Below are positions 6,609 to 60,258 of a stretch of 64,000 nucleotides of DNA, in pieces. The notes under the pieces are model-generated. The model ran no database searches, was not told the DNA's origin, and saw only the letters and a program-made list of their open reading frames with translations. This DNA comes from Odiellus spinosus (Eukaryota > Arthropoda > Arachnida > Opiliones > Phalangiidae). How positions within the stretch are numbered: position 1 is the stretch's first letter; the number at the start of each line of letters is the position of its first letter. Position numbers and translations under genes: made by a program. The DNA is taken from positions 13,530,886 to 13,594,885 of the forward strand of contig OY987236.1 in assembly GCA_963920705.1 (NCBI GenBank), given 5' to 3'.

Positions 6609-7198
6609 AGAAATTGTGTAGGAAAGGTCGAAAGGAAAAAATTTAGGTTATAAAAATAATTATTAACTTTAAATAGTTGATTTGACATTCTAAACGGACT
6701 CAGTGTCTAGTGTGAACGTAGCTTCGTTGTCGGACTCCATTAGCCCTTTAATTGAAGAATAACCAAGCTCTTATTCCCCCCACCCCCGTTTCACTAGAAA
6801 ACTTATAAAGATGCGATTTCGGGCTGTTCCGGTAACAGCTTGGTTTCCTAGTAAATGCGGTTAATTTCTTGATTAAATCTTGTTTGCCAGACGGTTTTTT
6901 ATATACGAATTTGCAATTTATGGTTTCCAATTTATAATTTTGATTCTAAAGTTTATTATATGTAAAGTCGAGCGTTTATTTAAAAGAATTATGAAAACTA
7001 GGTACATATATTTTTATCTCTTTTGATCGTTAAACAAAAGTTTATCGTTAATTTTCAGTTAACTAAATCCGAAGAAGTATAACTTTTTATTCTTATAAAA
7101 CAATAATACAAATGTCAGAATAATTTAGAGCGAATCAAACCGTTTGGTTTCGACTTAGTTCGCTTGACGCGCGTGAAATGTTTTGAAATGATAGTAAA
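6609..7198. other. AT-rich intergenic DNA
   Basis: No gene or clear repeat. The 60-codon minus-strand open frame at 6748-6930 shows no recognisable features. Confidence 0.4.
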
Positions 7199-7975
7199 TC
7201 TCAGTTTATTTGAACAGGGCTATGATTTGTTACCCCTTAAATTAACGTGTTCTGAAATCTTCCCGTAAATAATACCGATGCATCATGGAAACCCCACTTT
7301 CATGATGTATCGCTGGAATTTACAGGATAATTGATCAGTACATGAGTCATTAAACATCTCAGTTATTTGAACAGGGCTATGATTTGTTACCCCTTAGATT
7401 AACGTGTTCTGAAATCTTCAGGTAAATAATACCGATGCATCATGGAAACCCCACTTTCATGATGTATCGCTGGAATTTACAGGATAATTAATCAGTACAT
7501 GAGTCATTAAACATCTCAGTTATTTGAACAGTGCTATGATTTGTTACCCCTTAGATTAACGTGTTCTGAAATCTTCAGGTAAATAATACCGATGCATCAT
7601 GGAAACCCCACTTTCATGATGTATCGCTGGAATTTACAGGATAATTAATCATTACATGAGTTATTAGACATCTCTGTTATTTGAACAGTGCTATGATTTG
7701 TTACTCCTTAGATTAACGTGTACTGAAATCTTTCCGTAAATAATACCGATGCATCATGGAAGCCCCACTTTCATGATGTATCGCTGGAATTTACAAGATA
7801 ATTAATCAGTACATGAGTCATTAAACATCTCAGTTATTTGAACAGTGCTATATGATTTGTTACCCCTTAGATTAACGTGTTCTGAAATCTTCAGGTAAAT
7901 AATACCGATCCATCATAGAAACACCACTTTCATGATGTATCGCTGGAATTAACAGGATAATCAGTCCTTTAACAT
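7199..7975. repeat. 157-bp satellite, about five copies
   Basis: Five head-to-tail units start near 7201, 7359, 7516, 7673 and 7830 with a period of 157-158 bp and high identity; the last unit is truncated and more diverged. Each unit holds an inverted repeat with 12-base arms, CGATGCATCATG and CATGATGTATCG (first at 7276-7312), around a loop containing ACCCCAC. No coding capacity. I looked for ribozyme cores on both strands and found none in the unit. Confidence 0.93.
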
Positions 7976-8275
7976 TTTAGTCAATTAACACTTCGCCCAA
8001 TTTCTATTCTAATTAAAACAATAATCCAAGAACAATTAAAAACAGACATTTTACGCTCGCCAAGCGAACCCTTAAACACGCGCTTTGAATAGCCGCAGTT
8101 TTGCTGACATTTGCATTACTGTTTTAATCAATAATAATGTGAAATAGAGATAGACTCTGTATCAAAATATCAATTTGTAAATTAACTGTAAAATTAACAA
8201 GAAATCTTTGAGTTTTAATATTTTAATCGTTTAAATATAACATCTTACTAAATACTAATCTTAAGTATTGGCTTT
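7976..8275. other. AT-rich spacer
   Basis: Nothing recognisable between the satellite and the hammerhead-bearing element. Confidence 0.4.
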
Positions 8276-8409
8276 TAAAATCTTCACAAGGAAACTCTGC
8301 ACTATGTAACTAAACTCTTTGTTAGTTTGACAACGTTTCGAAGCTATCACTTCATCATCAGGTCATTATCTACTCTGCACCGTAGTGCAGTTTCCTTGCG
8401 AAGATTTTA
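8276..8409. mobile_element. Small inverted-repeat element carrying a hammerhead-like motif
   Basis: About 30-bp arms, TAAAATCTTCACAAGGAAAC at 8276 and its near complement ending TTTTA at 8409, enclose about 75 bases that include the ribozyme-like core. Total length 134 bp. The outer element resembles a MITE, but the core is typical of Penelope-like elements, so this may be a processed or fold-back fragment of such an element. Confidence 0.6.
8328..8365 (-). ncRNA. Minimal hammerhead ribozyme-like motif
   Basis: Reading the minus strand from 8365: stem I strand TGAC; core CTGATGA; one unpaired T; stem II GAAG with loop TGATAG and CTTC; core GAA; ACGT (A15.1 to U16.1, a self-complementary tiny stem III); T as the cleavage-site nucleotide; stem I strand GTCA. 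All invariant positions of the hammerhead core (CUGANGA, GAA, A-U, H17) are present and stem I pairs perfectly over 4 bp. Minimal hammerheads with such tiny stem III are known from Penelope-like retroelements and retrozymes, where they act best as dimers. The unpaired T at the base of stem II is unusual. Activity is inferred, not shown. Confidence 0.6.
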
Positions 8410-8842
8410 AAAACTAACAAGAATTTTACCTGCAACAAGAATAGGAATAATGAAATAATCTTAATTATCCAATTTTATATGTACCTCGTCTCTGTCTCGT
8501 TAAGGAAATTTGCACATAGTCCTCGTAATTCCTTTAGATACATTTCCCTGAAAAATTGTATTCTTCGTCTTAAAGGCTTCTCTAGACATCACGTAAATTT
8601 CAGTTTAATCCGTACGCAAGTCGGAACAGATTTAATTTTTTAGCTTTCCCTATATATTTAAACACCGTAGTCCGATAATACTTCCTGACTAAGGAGGTGC
8701 GTTTCTGTGAAGGGTTCCTAATATATTATTAAAACTCAGTCCATTTCCGAATATAAGATTAGTACACGCATTTCCGTCTCTCTAATATTCCGTTTTGAAA
8801 CTACAGAAGTTCTAACGACCATAATTATAGGAAATATTTTAA

Positions 8843-9326
8843 AGTGAGGCTGTCACAGATTTTTCACGAGCTCCAAATGGAATTTGACAAGCATTTTTAT
8901 TCAAAATATATACATATGCCATAAAGTTGATATAATATAAATTCAACTATAAAAATTAATATAATATTATCCTTATGCCTTCGGTAAAAACATGGTTACA
9001 GCATGGATTAATCAACCTCACCGGGATAATTCACTCTGATAAAATGATTGTTCGAATCGCACCGTGGTGACAAAAATTGTCTCTACACCGGAAGTTTCTA
9101 GCTACCGATACACGGGGTGAAATATTGAAGGGGAAAAAACTCTAAAGCAGACTATGCTCTCCTGGATTACTTCCGGATTTGTATCGGTAAGGGGGTAAAA
9201 TTGAGGGGCCGGATAAAATGTCTGGCAGCCATGTTTGAAACAAACATCTTAAACTACTAGTATAGCAAATCGTACCAGAGTTAATTATCCCTGTGAGGTT
9301 GATTATTCCATGGTTACAGCCTCACT
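8843..9326. mobile_element. TTAA-flanked element, family G (484 bp)
   Basis: Body bounded by AGTGAGGCTGT at 8843 and its complement ACAGCCTCACT ending at 9326, with TTAA on both sides (8839-8842, 9327-9330). TTAA duplication is the piggyBac signature. The same end occurs singly or paired at 32383, 37598, 39443, 49584, 50290 and about 56004. A second element is nested at 9002-9308. No transposase. Confidence 0.78.
9002..9308. mobile_element. Palindromic element nested in the family G copy
   Basis: 307 bp flanked by the direct repeat CATGGTTACAG (8991-9001 and 9309-9319). The ends form a 34-bp inverted repeat (9005-9038 against 9276-9309) with about four mismatches, containing AATCAACCTCAC. 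The interior is much richer in G+C than the host element. The unusually long target duplication (10-11 bp) could be partly coincidental, since the element also begins CATGG. Confidence 0.65.
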
Positions 9327-16722: not shown

Positions 16723-16910
16723 ATTCCGAGCGGTTTGTACCCCTGTAACCTTCCATGTAAAGGGAAGACTAAAAGTATAATTTCTAAATATATATAAGTT
16801 GGTTAATGACCCCGCAACTTGAGGATGAAAAGAAATAATTAAATATTATTATTAACTTTGATAATTGTGAATTACCGCTAAAGCATTGGTAATTTTTCTT
16901 AATGTTTTAA

Positions 16911-17322
16911 AGGGAGAATGCAACCTAACAAGTGATTTTTTTATATATATTCTTTATCGTTTAAATAGGCATATAATCTAACAAATTACAAACATATATT
17001 AAACTAGAAATATATTTAAAACTTGCCATCAAAATAGGCTTAGCTGGATTCATGGAGATATGCTGAACTCCCCGTATAAGGACTAGCCACCCATGACATT
17101 GATCATGAAGATCCTGCATTCCCCATATAAGAGCCATTAATCAATGTCATTGGTCGATAGTCCTTATATATGAGGAGTTCAGGTGATCTCCATGAATCCA
17201 GCTAAGCCTATTTTGATGGTAAGTTTAATATTTGATTTAATTTTTTTTTACATTTGGATTAGGCGTATTTAAACGATAAGGAATCGATTAAAAATCACTT
17301 GTTGTTAGGTTGAATTCTCCCT
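16911..17322. mobile_element. TTAA-type palindromic MITE, family C, copy 1 (412 bp)
   Basis: Starts AGGGAGAATGCAACCTAACA after TTAA (16907-16910) and ends with GAATTCTCCCT before TTAC, a mutated TTAA. A long inner inverted repeat pairs 17021-17060 (ATCAAAATAGGCTTAGCTGG...) with 17184-17221. The loop holds further copies of CCCCATATAAGAGCC-like motifs. Copies 2 and 3 are at 48429 and 59891. Confidence 0.85.
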
Positions 17323-18222
17323 TTACCACTTATTTTAATTAATTTTACAAATTGATTCAAAATAACTTATTTTTGGGGTCTTATTGCTTGTCTATGAAGC
17401 AATTGCTTTTACAGCCTCACTTTGTATAGGAAAGATGGAGGAATTCACTGGGGGACAACCGGAATCTACTAAAACACTTTCATTAAGAAGGGGTTTCAAA
17501 GACCCCAAAGTTAGCTTTTCCATCTTAAGCTAGCTGTGTACGGTTTATCCCAGGCGGAGTACGAGACGAAAGCAAAAGCTTAGTTTTCCGTTTGAGCAAT
17601 TTCACTATATACAACTTATAATCTCTTTCAGATTAGCTGCCCTTCTCATTTGGAACGTTTAGAAAGTTCCGGATGGATTAATATTTTAACTTTTCGTTAC
17701 TTTTGATGAATTAATCGTTTACGTTTGGATAAGGGACTTTTAGAGAATCGATCGATATTTGGTTACTTAACTCGCTAAACTGTAAATGTAGTTTTGTTCC
17801 ACTGATGTGTGGAACTAAACTTCTAAATTGGTAATTGTGATGTTTCGTATAGGTTGAGGTTTTAGTGAAATTAAGTAGCCATTTTGCAATACCAAATTCC
17901 AAAATTAGGGTAATTTTACAACTCTTAACTCGGGAAAACTAGTAAATCTATTAGCTAATCTATTAGTTAGAATATCATAGAAACAATAATGTATTGTTTA
18001 TCTCGCAGCGAACAAGTATAATTTAAAGAAGACGTTTTGTCTAGCAACAGATTCAATTAGAGCTCAATAACTGTTTCAAAATTAGACCAATCAACAAGTA
18101 TTTCGTTAGTTAGGCTTAGCACACTGTTTTTTTTATTATATTTGGTATTTTAAAGGTATAATGTAAACTCGCAATTATTTTCTATAGATTCCTAAACTAA
18201 AACAATAAAATAATTCAAGTAG
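17323..18222. other. Intergenic DNA, nothing recognised
   Basis: A solitary family G-like motif, ACAGCCTCACTTTGTATAG, near 17411 with no partner. No gene. Confidence 0.4.
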
Positions 18223-18229
18223 GCTTAAC

Positions 18230-18529
18230 CAAGAAGGATCAGACAAGGAGAGGAAAAGTGGGGCTGCGTTGAGTTAGAGAGAAGAGCCAACCTCCCACTC
18301 GGGTGGAAAGGGGGATAGGAAATTCTCGAGGTAAACTGTTGTCACGTGGTCGCTAGCGTCGTCGGCTACTACGCGTCTCATAAAGAATCCGTTTTACCCA
18401 CGTGACAGCAATTTACCACGAAGCATCTCTACCCCCGACTGTCCCCCGTTCTCCCAGAGTAGGAGTTTAGGCCGATGCAGTAGGAACCGCGCCGTTCCCT
18501 CTTTTCCTCTCCTTGTCTGATCCTTCTTG
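18230..18529. mobile_element. GC-rich MITE with clean target duplication (300 bp)
   Basis: Terminal inverted repeats of about 30 bp start CAAGAAGGATCAGACAAGGA at 18230 and mirror at 18500-18529. The direct repeat GCTTAAC flanks both sides (18223-18229, 18530-18536; extendable to 8 bp as GGCTTAAC). An inner inverted repeat (TTGTCACGTGG and CCACGTGACAGC) surrounds the centre. The 7-8 bp duplication fits hAT-like elements. GC content is far above the surroundings, so the insertion looks young. Confidence 0.85.
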
Positions 18530-18536
18530 GCTTAAC

Positions 18537-28094: not shown

Positions 28095-29893
28095 TCATAC
28101 GGTTTCGTTTTGAGTCGTGGCGATTTGTAATCGTACGGAATCGGTGTCGGAGCTGTAACGAACGGACGTTGGTATTTCTTTGATTTGTAAAGGGGGTGTT
28201 GAAACTGCCAATAACGTGGTACTGGTGCCGTCTTTAGTAGAGAGCCCGTTGCCCGTTTTGGGTAGTAGAGACTCGTGACCCGTGTCGTGGCCGTTGCACG
28301 TCCTCTCAGCGGCTGGGACGTACGATCTCCTGGCCCCCGAGACGAAATTGGCGGCGACCCCGCCACCTACGCCTTCTTGGAAACAGGGTAAGACCAGTTT
28401 GAACTCCTTTCGGAAATTCTCGTTGAGCCAAGCGTAGAGAAAAGGGTTGTAGCAAGTAGAACTCATGGCGGCGGCGTGCGATAGAAAGTAGAATACGCTG
28501 ACGTAACGCCAACTCGAGGCCGGGATGTAGAAGTCTTGCAAGAGGTTATAGACGTTGAGCGGCATCCAAGAAGCGCCGAAGATGACCACCATGGAGATTA
28601 ACATTCGGTTGGTGCGTCGGGTTCTTTCCCTTTCCATTTCTTCCTTACGAAGACTCTTGGCTCCTGGTTTGAATTTGGCCCGGTCGCGCAGACGAACGCA
28701 CACCTGCAAGTAGCACAGGCTAATGATGATGAAAGGAATGACAAATTGGAGCACCGACGTCGAGATTGAGAACCATTTGCGGGTCGTTTCGTGCGGCCAT
28801 ACCTGTTAAATGAAATTAAAAAATAGTTTTCAAAATTTCCCTTTCCCTTTATGGACATCATTCCGTTATTTACTACATGAAGGCAAGTGGTGTAAATTAA
28901 TCGCGGGGCTAACGCTGTGGAGGCCTTTACAGCGAAACGTGTGACTATCCTACCACAGTACACCGTATATACGAAGCATTCCCACCACTGATGGGGTCTA
29001 ATATTGTGTAGTGATTCCTCCACCTTCAAAAAGATTTTCCGCGAAAAAAAAAAAAAAAAAAAAGCTACGTCGTTTTCAAATGAAACGAACCACGGTAAAA
29101 ATATATTCATTTGTACATATGTACTTTCCGTGTCAAGAAATTATAGCATCTATACATTATCTCACGCGCTGAAAGAAGCGTTCGAATATTTGAAGACTCT
29201 ATCGTTTGTCTTATCGCTTACCTCTTCGCAATATAGATTTTCATTTTGGTCGACCACACTCATGAAAATTCCATAGGGTAGCGTGAGGAGAGCGGCGGCC
29301 AACCAAACGCCAATGATGATCAGAATACAGAAGGTAACCTTCAGTCTCGACTTGAACGGGTAAATGATGACGAAAAATCGATCGATGGCGATGGACATGA
29401 GCGTGAAGGCCGAAATATAGACGCTGACCCCTTGCGCGTACGGAACCAAATGGCACAATACCGTCCCGAAGACCCATTGGCTCAAGAAGGTATATAAGGG
29501 AGTGAAGGGCACCGCGAACATGCACAACAGAATGTCCGACAACGCCAAGTTGGTGATAAAGTAATTGGTCACCGTTTGCATGTTACGATTACGAAAGACC
29601 ACGTAGCAAACCAACACGTTTCCGCAAATGCCCACTACGAAGATGATGACGTAGAGGCAACAGAAAAAGGCTTGCACCGCGGGTAATTGGATAATAGTGT
29701 CTTCCGCCATCTTGTCTTCGTCTTGGGAGTAATTTAAATTCATCAGGGAAACGTTTTCAGAGGTTAAGTAAGCCGATAGTGCGGCGATATTCGCGAAGGG
29801 TAGATTATTCACCAATTTTAAATGTAGTGGCGTTTTGGCCCACGGATCTAATCCATCCTGTTCGGGAGTTTCCATTTCTAGACTGATTGACAT
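28095..29893 (-). CDS. NPFR: Neuropeptide F / NPY-type G protein-coupled receptor
   Basis: Two coding exons: 29893..29222 (224 codons) and 28802..28095 (235 codons plus TGA), joined by a phase-0 intron, give 459 residues, a normal length for this family. The start ATG has A at -3 and an in-frame TAA 15 bases upstream. Visible class A landmarks: N-glycosylation sites N47 and N54; TM1 with GN (N92); TM2 LALSD (D120); C147 paired with C222 in loop 2; DRF at 171-173 in place of DRY; W197 in TM4; TM6 with FGASWMPLN (299-307); TM7 NPFLY (343-347); a helix-8 segment NENFRKEFK and a likely palmitoylated C364. The spliced junction reads CEE-VWPHE. The segment from RTNRMLIS to ENFRKEF is the hallmark of protostome NPF receptors and molluscan NPY receptors. 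These receptors sit in the plasma membrane, bind NPF peptides and usually couple to Gi/o. A related RYamide-type receptor is less likely. Non-coding 5' exons cannot be excluded. Confidence 0.9.
28803..29221 (-). other. Intron of the NPF receptor gene
   Basis: A 419-bp phase-0 intron with donor AG|GTAAGC (GT at 29221-29220) and acceptor TTTAACAG|GTA (AG at 28804-28803). It splits the second extracellular loop just after the conserved cysteine, in the CEE/VWP segment. It holds a 20-base homopolymer, T on the coding strand (A at 29044..29063 on plus), which probably arose by slippage. Open frames running into it from both exons are read-through artefacts. Confidence 0.88.
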
Positions 29894-31087
29894 TTTGTCG
29901 CTATTTTATGACGTATAAGTTTCCTGTGTGGACTAAGCCTCGCGCCTTTCACGATTTTATCGAATATAAAGTTGTATGTAGATTATTTTACAGGCACCAT
30001 CGTACGTGGCACGCAATTGCAATACCGAGAATTTTTAACTCTTATTTTGTCCGTACACGTATTGAGTGATTGAGTATTTCGTTTCTTTCATGCTCGGATT
30101 ATTTTATTCCCGTTTTTATTTTAACATTTTTTGGTACGTGAAGAATTGGTAAAAATGCTGTTGTTTTGGTGTAGATAAATCTGTCGCATTTCTCATAACT
30201 TCCACCAATATTTATTTCTTAGGTTCAATGTTGTATATACTGAAAGCAAGGTGTATGTCGTGGCTGGGAAAAGATTTCGTTGAGAGTTTTAACCTTGGGA
30301 GTATTTCCGTGAAACTGTAAAGAGAAAGATAGCAGAAAAAAGTTAGGTTATTGATTATTGCAAGATGAAAAAACAGTTTAGACTGAAATGCTAGAATAGT
30401 CATTTAATAAAATTCCCTTCAGATTTGCTTCTCAGGAAGACTTAGGTACAAAAGTGTGGTCTTTCGTGGTTGGTCAAAATTTTGGCCAACTTGATATTGT
30501 CAAAATTCCAACCGAAAATGCCATTGCCATACTACACCAAAAGGTTATACTGCTTGAGGCCTGCTTGAATGGAATTTTTATTTAGTATTTTTTCATTTTA
30601 AGTTGGCCTAAAGGGAAAGTTCGTAGGAAGAGATCGGGGTTTGGACAAAATAATCCACAACTATCAGTTAATCAGTTAAACATAAAAAATAATCGGAAAA
30701 TTATTCGCGATTACTCAAGCGCATATTGTATCCCTTGGCAGCTTGCTTAAAGGGAGAATGCTACCTTTAATTGTCAATCTAGTTTGATTTTAATACAATT
30801 TGTTTCGTTTAGCTCAATTTTTTATATTTTTAGATAAAAACGTGAATTTTCGTGAGAATTGTCATTAAGATTAAAGTAATTTATTTCCAATATAAAGGCG
30901 AAAAAAGTTTATACACTTTAATGATCGCAAGTCGACCCCAAAAATATATGAAATAGATTTTATAAGAAAAATAACTCTTGTTAAGAATCAGTTTGAGAGC
31001 TTCAGCGATTATATAAAAATATTAAAAAAAAAAAAAATATTTGAGTAATAGAAGTTATTACAAACAGTAGGATAGAAAACTAGGTTC
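29894..31087. other. Upstream region of the receptor gene
   Basis: No core promoter could be identified with confidence. GATTTTATCGAATATAAAGT near 29953 recurs at about 32203. 30631-30735 is a partial family Q copy (AGATCGGGGTTTGGACAA). A lone family C end after TTAA is at 30747-30770 (AGGGAGAATGCTACC). Confidence 0.4.
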
Positions 31088-48428: not shown

Positions 48429-48993
48429 AGGGATAATGCAACCTAACAACAAGTGATTTTTTTTTATCCATTCGTTATCGTTTAAAAAATTTACAAACAA
48501 ATATTAAACTAGAAATAAATTTAAATCTTACCCAGAATATATGCTTAGCTGGATTCATGGAGATTATCCTGAACTAAGGACTAGCGACCAATGACATCGA
48601 GGTGGGCAGACACTCGCGAACTTGGGTGTACAAAATTTTATAACTCTTTGCACTATCAAAGCTCAACTCAGAGATCATAAGAGTTCACTGAGCTAAACTC
48701 AGTGAACTCAGGTGTACAGCGAATTCAAGAGAGTCTGATCTGACTCCTCGAATGACGTTGATCGTGGAGTTCCTGCGTTCTCCATATAAGAGACATCGAT
48801 CAATGTCATTGGTCACTAGAACTTATACTGGGAGTTCAGGTGATCTCCAATGAATCCAGCTAAGCCTATTTTCCGTGTAAGTTTTAAATTTGATTGTAGT
48901 TTAATATTTGTTTTTAATTGTTTTTACTGTTGAATTAGGGTTATTTAAACAATACGGATTAAAAATCACTTGTTGTTAGTTTGCATTGCTCTT
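48429..48993. mobile_element. TTAA-type palindromic MITE, family C, copy 2
   Basis: After TTAA (48425-48428) it starts AGGGATAATGCAACCTAACA; the decayed right end is GCATTGCTCTT. It carries the family inner arms GCTTAGCTGGATTCATGGAG and ATGAATCCAGCTAAGCCTA. A 153-bp element is nested at 48598-48750. Confidence 0.8.
48598..48750. mobile_element. 153-bp element nested in family C copy 2
   Basis: Flanked by AATGACAT (48590-48597) and AATGACGT (48751-48758), an 8-bp duplication with one difference; absent from copies 1 and 3. Ends CGAGG and CCTCG are inverted. The centre holds a perfect hairpin with 12-bp arms, GAGTTCACTGAG and CTCAGTGAACTC (48681-48709), loop CTAAA. An 8-bp duplication fits hAT-like elements. 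Confidence 0.75.
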
Positions 48994-58081: not shown

Positions 58082-58497
58082 TTACATGTAAATCATATGC
58101 AAATATTGTACAATATGTAAATCATATGCAAATATTGTACAATATGTAAATCATATGCAAATATTGTACAATATGTAAATATGTAAATATTGTACAATAT
58201 GTAAATCATATGCAAATATTGTACAATATGTAAATCATATGCAAATATTGTACAATATGTAAGTCGGATTCAAATATTGTATAATATGTAAATCGGATGC
58301 AAATATTGTACAATATGCAAATCGGATGCAAATATTGTACAAAATGTAAATCAGAAGCAAATATTGTACAAAATGTAAATCAGAAGCAAATATTGTACAA
58401 AATGTAAATCGGATGCAAATATTGTACAAAATGTAAATCGGAAGCAAATATTGTACAAAATGTAAATCAGAAGCAAATATTGTACAAAATGTAAATC
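58082..58497. repeat. 29-bp minisatellite, about 14 copies
   Basis: Unit contains the palindromic core AATATTGTACAATATG then TAAATCATATGCA. The left half is homogeneous and the right half drifts to AAAATGTAAATC(G/A)GAAGC. One unit near 58180 is shortened. Inverted single units occur at 58655-58705. Confidence 0.93.
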
Positions 58498-59886
58498 AAA
58501 TTATGTAATCGGATAAATTTGTTACCAAGGGGTCGAGGGCATCTTGAATAAAATACACTGCCGATCATGGTCCACAAAGTTTACCCCCCCCCCCCCATAA
58601 TCACAATCTCCATGAAATGTAAATATATATGTAAATTTATGTTATATACATATATTTACATTTGATTTACACGTACAATATTTGCATTTAATTTACATAT
58701 TTAAAATCTTTTGTTTAAAGAGATTTGTCCTTGAAGCACCCTCTATGCTAGCTCTTTCTTATCCCCTTGACGTCATTGTATTGCGTCAAATACCTCGAAC
58801 AAACCCTTTCGCGATATAAAGCGTATGAAGAGAAACGTATTGTGATCGTTACCAACGCCTATGGTGTTCTGTTATCTGGTCAACCTTTCAGTCTATATAC
58901 ATAACAGTACAATACCTTGAACGGACCCTCGGGCTCGCGTAATTCCCCAACCATATGACCGGTTAAGCTTATATATCCTATAAGAAAATCGGAAAAACTT
59001 CCAGATTTCCCTCTTTCATCCCTCTCTTCCTTTCTATAAGTTGTCCTATCGGGGTTTTGTCCATTGTTTATTTTTCTCTTTACGAAAAATGTGTAAGTTT
59101 CATCTTGATTTGAATGTACACTAGAAGGTATGCTCCATAAATTTCTTAGAGGTTAAATCTTAGAGATAAGTGCTGCCAATTTAGAATGAAATTTGAAAAT
59201 TATATGCAAATTGATATTACTAGGTTTGTTAAATAAACCCTGGAAGGTAGCTTTTCCTCGCGCTAGATTGTACGGCAGCTAAAACATTTTTACAGGCGCC
59301 GGTAGAAAATATATGGGATATTTTTCCCCTACCTGTTCGTTTCATTCAAGGCATTATTAATTTATTTCAGCCTGCCAGGGGTAACGACATTTCCGTGTTT
59401 ACAAAAATAGTCGTTATAAGGCATAGAGGTGATATTAGAAATTACAATATATCTCGTATCTCATCTCCCTGACTTAAGTGTATTGCCTTGAAACCAATTC
59501 ACGTAATATGGTAGGAATTTATTTCTTATATCGCTTGGTATTACAAGGGGGTGTATGCAATTTAGCTTGCCAAGGTGATTGGGAGCTGTCTCAATGGTAA
59601 TTTTCTTCAGCTCGTATAACACGCAGTGTCTTATTATCGAGATATATATAGAGATTCCATATAAATCAACATTTATTGCATACTTGTGTTAGAAGCATAG
59701 TGAAGTCTAAGAACTTTGGTAGAATTATTAACGAAGTAAATGATTTTAAACTCAAAGTAGGTTTAGTTGCGTTTGAAGAGGCATTTGAATTGCCGGATAT
59801 GGCAATTTGAATCAAAGATCACCTACCAATCAACAAACACGAGTTTATCTTATGTTTTGATATCTGAAGATTATTATTATCCCCCC
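58498..59886. other. Intergenic DNA with a 121-bp imperfect duplication
   Basis: C run at 58584-58596; inverted minisatellite units at 58620-58710. 58740-58860 and 58861-58980 are diverged tandem copies (AATACCTCGAACAAACCCTT, then AATACCTTGAACGGACCCTC). The first copy is open in one plus frame and includes RYKAYEEKRIVIVTNAYGVL before a stop; without splice support I do not call it. Confidence 0.35.
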
Positions 59887-59890
59887 TTAA

Positions 59891-60258
59891 AGGGAGAATG
59901 CAACCTATCTATTTTTTATCGATTCCTTATCGTTGAAATAGGTCTAATCCAGCAGGAAAAAATTACTAACAAATATTAAACTAGAAATCAATTTAAAACT
60001 TACCATCAAAATAGGCTTAGCTGGATTCATGATATCTTGAACTCCCCATATAAGGGCTAGCGACCAATGACATTGAGCGATGGCTCTTATATGGGGAATG
60101 CAGGGTCTTCATGAATCCAGCTAAGCCTATTTTCCAGGGTAAGTTTTAAAATGATTTCTAGTTTAATATTTGTTTGTATTTTTTTTACTGGTGGATTAGG
60201 CCTATTTGAACGATAAGGAATTGATAACAAATCACTTAATGTTAGGTGGAATCTACCT
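59891..60258. mobile_element. TTAA-type palindromic MITE, family C, copy 3 (368 bp)
   Basis: TTAA on both sides (59887-59890, 60259-60262). Ends AGGGAGAATGCAACCTA and TAGGTGGAATCTACCT are inverted. Inner arms CCATCAAAATAGGCTTAGCT and AGCTAAGCCTATTTTCCAGG pair. The least degraded target duplication of the three copies. Confidence 0.88.

Follow-up and report, generated by a model that had tools for sequence, protein, structure and literature searches.

The window studied here is a stretch of 64,000 nucleotides from Odiellus spinosus (13530886-13594885 of contig 14), and the genome searched is the 443-Mb assembly, in 286 contigs, from which it comes. At 8328-8365 of the window lies a minimal, stem-III-poor hammerhead core, and the hairpin around it is very likely a dead, short insertion relic of a Penelope-like element (PLE) that still bears the hammerhead motif. 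The hairpin element is identified by arm alignment as two PLE 5' ends placed head to head, one tailed and one tail-less.

The hammerhead motif and its relatives

Each piece of a minimal hammerhead named in the original prediction was found on the minus strand of 8328-8365, in the order that it had given, which confirms the observation. The pieces are as follows, read from the sequence unless another basis is mentioned.

8365-8362, minus strand: stem I, 5' side, TGAC
8361-8355, minus strand: core, CTGATGA
8354, minus strand: extra T (U), between A9 and stem II
8353-8350, minus strand: stem II, GAAG
8349-8344, minus strand: loop II, TGATAG
8343-8340, minus strand: stem II, CTTC
8339-8337, minus strand: core, GAA
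8336-8333, minus strand: palindromic stem III, ACGT
8332, minus strand: cleavage nucleotide, T (U)
8331-8328, minus strand: stem I, 3' side, GTCA
between 8332 and 8331, minus strand: predicted cut (motif layout)
8328..8365, minus strand: whole minimal hammerhead ribozyme motif (sequence, descriptor and shuffles, covariance model, covariation in 49 relatives)

A strict descriptor was used that comprises CTGANGA with at most one insertion, a 4-bp stem II with a loop of 3-30, GAA, a stem III made of a closing A..U and an inner pair that encloses at most 29 nt, an allowed cleavage base and a 4-bp stem I. It matched once in the 64-kb window, compared to a mean of 0.023 matches per shuffle in 300 dinucleotide shuffles; any match was found in 7 of these 300 shuffles, and a four-base stem III like that of the window in none. 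The simple patterns CTGANGATG (one occurrence in the window versus 0.81 expected) and CTGANGA...GAAAC (one versus 0.51) are not significant alone. A covariance model built from 49 relatives without the window copy recovered the window motif with 74.1 bits and an E-value of 3.6e-18, the next-best site in the window having an E-value of 0.28. The Rfam hammerhead models, which had been suggested as a check, reported none in the window at the gathering cut-off, nor in 8000-8700 or in 12 sister loci at E-values up to 10, and no Rfam family of any kind passes its gathering cut-off in the whole window. In the lowest-energy fold predicted for the isolated 50-nt stretch, stems I and II form and GAUG of the core pairs with CGUU. 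The long fold-back hairpin is a predicted competitor of the hammerhead fold, and the window element contains no second hammerhead copy on the same strand.

With the 150-bp element as query, 56 matches were obtained in the genome (best 40 of 79 candidates scored), many of them as inverted pairs, and the core pattern gave 63 exact matches genome-wide, compared to none for the reversed-pattern control. From 61 unique arms, 46 chosen by similarity of the element and not of the core were aligned, the remainder stopping short of the core. The core positions are conserved in 41-46 of these 46 arms and the ACGT columns of stem III in 44-46; the free hammerhead position N7 is conserved in 37 and the positions of loop II in 19-36, with the exception of one that is T in all 46. 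The unpaired T beside stem II, first regarded as atypical, proved to be the norm of the family, since it is T in 46/46 aligned arms and, among the 63 genomic pattern matches, T in 58, A in 4 and C in 1. According to the available text of PMC10085705, known hammerheads can have an insertion of one or two nucleotides beside CUGAnGA.

Covariation was assessed in 49 of the 56 distinct relatives, the window copy being excluded and the others differing in loop length or register. Standard pairs occupy 90% of the stem pair cells, versus at most 67% when the pairing is slid. Changes on both sides were counted in 17 cells of stems I and II, compared to 4.1 after shuffling (none of 500 shuffles as high) and to a slid maximum of 12. 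The covariation score was likewise reached by none of 500 shuffles in these relatives; two coarser measures were weaker (pairs with a both-side change, 11/500; further pair types, 43/500). The alignment of other copies, proposed with the motif, thus yielded a core that is mostly kept and stems I and II that covary. For a chance hammerhead-like string in an unrelated hairpin speak the silence of Rfam and the 0.51 occurrences of CTGANGA...GAAAC expected per window; against it stand the rarity of the full descriptor, the independent match of the covariance model (E 3.6e-18) and the relatives, which keep the core and covary, and this explanation is ruled out with near certainty.

Minimal hammerheads in PLEs were reportedly described by Cervera and de la Pena in 2014 and by Lunse, Weinberg and Breaker in 2017. 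They are reviewed in PMC6155905 and PMC7761336; the available text of the latter describes them as minimal type I hammerheads devoid of helix III or loop contacts and calls their role unknown. As far as the available texts go, the known PLE hammerheads and those of O. spinosus are alike in being of type I, in their conserved core and near-absent palindromic stem III, and in their location in PLE pLTRs, with copies dispersed in the genome. A possible difference is the near-constant extra U after CUGANGA in the O. spinosus family (58/63). A further one is the arrangement of neighbouring exact copies, which in O. spinosus is head to head and not in close tandem.

The Penelope-like source element

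The motif was thought to be a minimal hammerhead of the Penelope type, and this assignment is supported by the kept core, the covarying stems and its presence in PLE pLTRs adjoining reverse transcriptase (RT) ORFs. Its location in the pLTR is read directly in relatives and is assigned to the window copy by homology. In the copy at C8:3749-3752 kb, whose layout was read from its ends, two 204-bp pLTR repeats that are 98% identical flank the coding region, each with a hammerhead; the ORF ATG comes just after the first pLTR, and the RT match holds one stop. Stem II of this copy is GGAG/CTCC, a change on both sides relative to GAAG/CTTC. As the pLTR-ORF-pLTR layout matches that of Penelope-like elements, the source is taken to be a PLE. 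The PLE features present are direct pLTRs around the ORF (in one copy), tails and short target duplications (in 7 of 21 fold-backs).

A 708-aa PLE ORF was compared to the genome (64 matches listed; best 63 of 752 candidates scored). Of the 63 exact motifs, four are found on the same strand as one of the 64 RT matches listed and 184-238 bp downstream of it, and in the sister loci L035, L034 and L033 the motif lies just downstream of an ORF. Judged by eye, these three ORFs contain RT motifs or a GIY-YIG-like C-terminal stretch. RVT_1 matched with an E-value of 4.9e-6 and 26.8 bits, which is under the Pfam cut-off of 29.6, and a group II RT model with 6e-7, far under that family's own cut-off. 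Searched against PDB, the whole 708-aa ORF had no match and its RT part matched a group II maturase (E 0.013); the ORF had no relative in the phage collection or viral contigs. Pfam reported no GIY-YIG domain for the PLE ORF; by eye, its stretch YEI..KYIGETKRT..ER..EH resembles the motif of that family. The absence of an RT nearby, pointed out in the original prediction, holds for the window, in which tblastn with a sister PLE ORF found no PLE coding sequence in the 64 kb (best E 0.88), but not for the sister copies: the search for a Penelope RT beside other copies, also suggested there, found sister RT ORFs and the C8 copy with two pLTRs.

Two further loci, C5:18260807-18266667 and C14:1808116-1812636, hold head-to-head pairs of open PLE frames (853 aa and 775 aa). 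The match scores are identical within each pair, as if each were one inverted duplication.

Of 35 rows flagged as other than fold-back, many of them related, 23 have some TATA-like word and 16 have one at 39-44 nt upstream of the core; the background is 10% of random AT-rich 60-mers. The inner ends were compared in 38 hand-picked rows of 69, mostly from subfamilies A, B and D, 37 of them against one reference. In the 11 nt next to the core on its upstream side, 25-36 of the 37 hand-picked arms agree (18 at one A/G position), and from the 12th nt the agreement falls to 10-18. The drop is blurred when the 68 comparable arms are taken together, among which are subfamilies whose flanks differ (29-65 over the first 11 nt, 21-37 from the 12th). 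For 12 arms chosen for sharing a 12-mer, inner identity is no evidence. The fall in conservation about 12 nt upstream of the core would coincide with the place of a TATA-directed start; from motif position only, the transcript would begin about 12 nt before the core.

Anatomy of the window element and its sister fold-backs

The fold-back had been described as 134 bp long. It is real, its 29-nt arms being 90% complementary and its minus-strand folding z-score -8.18 relative to shuffles, but it is larger than described, covering approximately 8269-8455. Its parts, each with its basis, are:

8256..8268, no strand: left target-site duplication, TAATCTTAAGTAT (duplication test)
8269..8373, minus strand: tail-less arm, PLE 5' pLTR stretch with the hammerhead (arm alignment, inner-end comparison)
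8375..8390, no strand: centre hairpin CTGCAC-CGTA-GTGCAG at the arm junction (sequence)
8385..8455, plus strand: tailed arm, inverted second PLE 5' copy, shortened and without hammerhead (arm alignment)
8419..8455, plus strand: tail of about 36 bases, equivalent in relatives to roughly codons 1-12 of the PLE ORF (tail motif)
8456..8468, no strand: right target-site duplication, TAATCTTAATTAT, with one mismatch (duplication test)

The 13-bp duplication with its one mismatch has a shuffle p of 0.01. The tail-less arm aligns with positions 1-108 of the 144 of arm A at 95% and is 97% identical over 101 bp to C1:18.293 Mb; its inner end, 8373, would be the RNA 5' end, 12 nt before the core, and its other end is near the boundary of the ORF start. 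The tailed arm aligns with positions 71-144 of 144 of arm A at 90.5% and has a tail score of 21. The tail corresponds to about the first dozen ORF codons, because relatives read these bases from ATG as MNFTCNKNRNNE, MFSCKKNKNYKI, MYTCNKNRNYKI and similar; in the window the start codon is lost. The outer ends of the element thus lie near the ORF start on one side and about 12 codons inside the ORF on the other.

The very stable minus-strand hairpin and the intact core would suit a locus in present use, as a candidate small-RNA precursor hairpin or an active ribozyme site. However, the arms differ, the equivalent of the start codon is lost and nothing observed would point to selection on this copy itself; such a use is very unlikely. 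The window hammerhead is probably a passenger with an intact core, neither having a present role nor being a working site.

The original prediction also considered a ribozyme-bearing non-autonomous family, which would be MITE-like or retrozyme-like and multiply as a unit. The genome does contain about twenty short fold-backs with arms like those of the window, some with target duplications. However, with up to 3 mismatches allowed, the 31-mer at the centre junction of the window element was found a single time in the genome (repeat counts being lower bounds), so that the element looks like a single insertion and not like a member of a self-propagating ribozyme family. Moreover, there is a gradation from the sister head-to-head copies to others that retain PLE coding sequence, several pairs holding such remains of varying length, and the 63 exact motifs have no tandem neighbours within 20 kb, unlike metazoan retrozymes. 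The proposal is therefore very unlikely. A MITE or fold-back DNA transposon, with shared ends and centre, is not supported, the centre of the window element having been found once in the genome; the other centres were compared by eye. The available text of PMC7229834 describes metazoan retrozymes as units of about 150-450 bp, repeated in direct tandem and bearing canonical hammerheads, which the present elements are not; the non-LTR ones resemble these elements in being non-coding with type I hammerheads. The lack of tandem neighbours among the exact motifs also speaks against a metazoan retrozyme; one looser same-strand pair was found at C1:29.055 Mb.

Tails and duplications were scored in 21 hand-picked head-to-head fold-backs. 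L045, L046, L013, L031 and L036, in which the box of one arm is missing, were left out of the 21; L045 and L046 are one-tailed by the extent of their alignment. At a tail threshold of 11, one tail was found in 18 of the 21 fold-backs, two in none and no tail in 3, an excess of single tails with a permutation p of 0.00075 when the same ends are paired at random. The rule depends on the score threshold, because L019 becomes two-tailed at a threshold of 10 (17 with one tail, 1 with two, 3 with none; p 0.0067). The tails of L022, L047 and L050 score just 11, which is the maximum among 3000 random sequences, and two of the three tail-less pairs (L043, L071) show what resembles the first part of a tail. 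Duplications of 12-13 bp with a shuffle p of at most 0.01 were found in 7 of the 21 fold-backs, and a convincing duplication is absent in the other 14, among which L005, L043 and L070 have weak ones and L004 a poly-T match that was not counted.

Head-to-head arrangement also prevails among neighbours. Within 10 kb, the RT matches (63 after merging; best 63 of 752) form 9 head-to-head, 5 tandem and no tail-to-tail neighbours, the tandem ones including pieces 46 bp apart that are possibly one copy, and within 20 kb the 63 exact motifs form 6 head-to-head and no tail-to-tail neighbours.

Three fold-backs (L016 1445-1551, L067 153-263 and L055 80-294) gave matches to Rfam microRNA precursors below the gathering cut-off, with E-values down to 2.2e-24, apparently because they are long, nearly perfect hairpins.

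Other features of the window were recorded in passing. About 300 bp separate the element from the end of a 157-bp tandem repeat at 7198-7961 (4.8 copies, 94% matches), in which CTGAAGAT occurs and which matches the PLE-hammerhead model weakly (E 0.28-0.45). The repeat was rejected as a hammerhead, with no Rfam hammerhead and no CTGANGA with GAAAC within 30 nt. A 29-bp tandem array of 14 copies at 58086-58716 is also strongly inverted-repetitive. Other inverted-repeat pairs, at 9002-9312, 16908-17325, 18229-18530, 48484-48924 and 59911-60232 (for example one of 34 nt at 97%, and nested ones of 55 and 52 nt at 88-89%), are candidates for additional insertions of a fold-back or MITE-like kind. 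On the minus strand, 28095-28805 and 29162-29905 encode parts of a rhodopsin-family G-protein-coupled receptor (7tm_1, 3.1e-20 and 2.7e-35), which by eye resembles an arthropod neuropeptide receptor; this spliced receptor gene and the retroelements mark the DNA as eukaryotic.

Origin and meaning of the fold-backs

For the window element, a two-ended insertion step is somewhat favoured. In this scheme, the protein of a PLE whose transcript carries a minimal hammerhead near its 5' end would cut both target strands about 12 bp apart; reverse transcription would be primed on each strand and start at one of two internal sites by the ORF start. Both cDNAs would be extended as far as the 5' end of the RNA, about 12 nt before the core of the ribozyme, and be joined at that point, giving head-to-head arms. 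The left arm extends upstream of the cleavage site, and its template would therefore have been uncut by the hammerhead.

Several of these steps have a counterpart in Poseidon PAc of Anolis carolinensis, the protein of which cuts and extends both target strands (PMC11167929). Reverse transcription by this protein begins inside the RNA, at two sites close to the start of the ORF that map 111-118 bp into it (PMC11167929). The dominant template there is RNA uncut by the hammerhead, and the Anolis hammerhead is cleaved solely in the presence of the element's protein (PMC11167929). In both PAc and the O. spinosus PLE the hammerhead is located at the pLTR/ORF start. Initiation at either of two internal sites, as in PAc, would explain the optional tail, although the outer ends differ in position, being at about the start codon and codon 12 in O. 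spinosus. They also differ in symmetry: 18 of 21 O. spinosus fold-backs have exactly one tail, whereas for PAc no difference in start site between the strands was reported in vitro (PMC11167929). Independent priming alone does not explain the one-tail rule, because no strand difference in RT start was reported in PMC11167929.

The same PLE insertion could have acquired its second arm by self-priming or template switching of a single cDNA that snapped back, a possibility that we regard as real but rather unlikely. Self-priming has been proposed for Penelope of Adineta vaga from palindromes at head-to-head junctions, according to the available text of PMC3846280, and is thus a published precedent. 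The small hairpin at the centre of the window element (8375-8390), the sister fold-back centres, several of which are palindromic by eye, and the near-identical arms that can occur within a fold-back (L070 1.00, L016 0.98, L038 0.98) all suit it. However, snapping back predicts equal outer ends, yet in 18 of the 21 fold-backs (17 if the lower threshold is used) one arm is tailed and the other tail-less. In addition, for 14 of the 21 fold-backs the best arm of another locus matches at least as well as the partner arm (with ties in 3), a weak comparison, given stretches of 52 nt and the advantage of choosing the best among about 40 others.

The A. vaga elements described in the available text of PMC3846280 resemble the O. 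spinosus ones in several other respects: inverted pLTRs, a 31-bp tail on one of them, target duplications of 8-10 bp, palindromic head-to-head junctions, and a pLTR plus tail that reaches into the ORF. They differ in that the pLTR itself has 12 codons and the pLTR plus tail 22, and the word hammerhead is missing from the main text of PMC3846280 as available. Unlike in A. vaga, about twenty of the O. spinosus insertions are two 5' ends with no ORF between them.

To return to two-ended insertion, we tentatively suggest, at a lower level of confidence, that the fold-backs record a coordinated form of it. The cuts would be staggered by about 12 bp, the RT starts would almost always differ between the strands (start codon versus about codon 12), and the cDNAs would end at the capped 5' end of an uncut transcript, the first dozen nt of which would form the stem I strand. 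If this were true, each RNP or dimer would enforce one tailed and one tail-less end, and the hammerhead would be placed so that its cleavage takes off the cap-proximal leader. Where an element is intact, its ribozyme probably serves to trim tandem pLTR-ORF-pLTR transcripts, either as a dimer or helped by protein. Hammerhead dimers require a palindromic stem III loop and a tandem arrangement, according to the available text of PMC6466107, and the ACGT of the window motif fits the palindromic requirement.

In a limited literature search, which lacked the content of the primary papers on PLE hammerheads, no report was found that joins PLE hammerheads with such fold-backs. The window ribozyme as such would be one more PLE hammerhead, ordinary in kind and of an already known type. 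More useful is the genome set: a single assembly holds about twenty short PLE insertions that lack an ORF, their outer ends lie at two discrete positions, their inner end recurs, and a third of the fold-backs have target duplications. Against this natural record one may test self-priming, two-ended target-primed reverse transcription and where in the PLE cycle hammerhead cleavage belongs.
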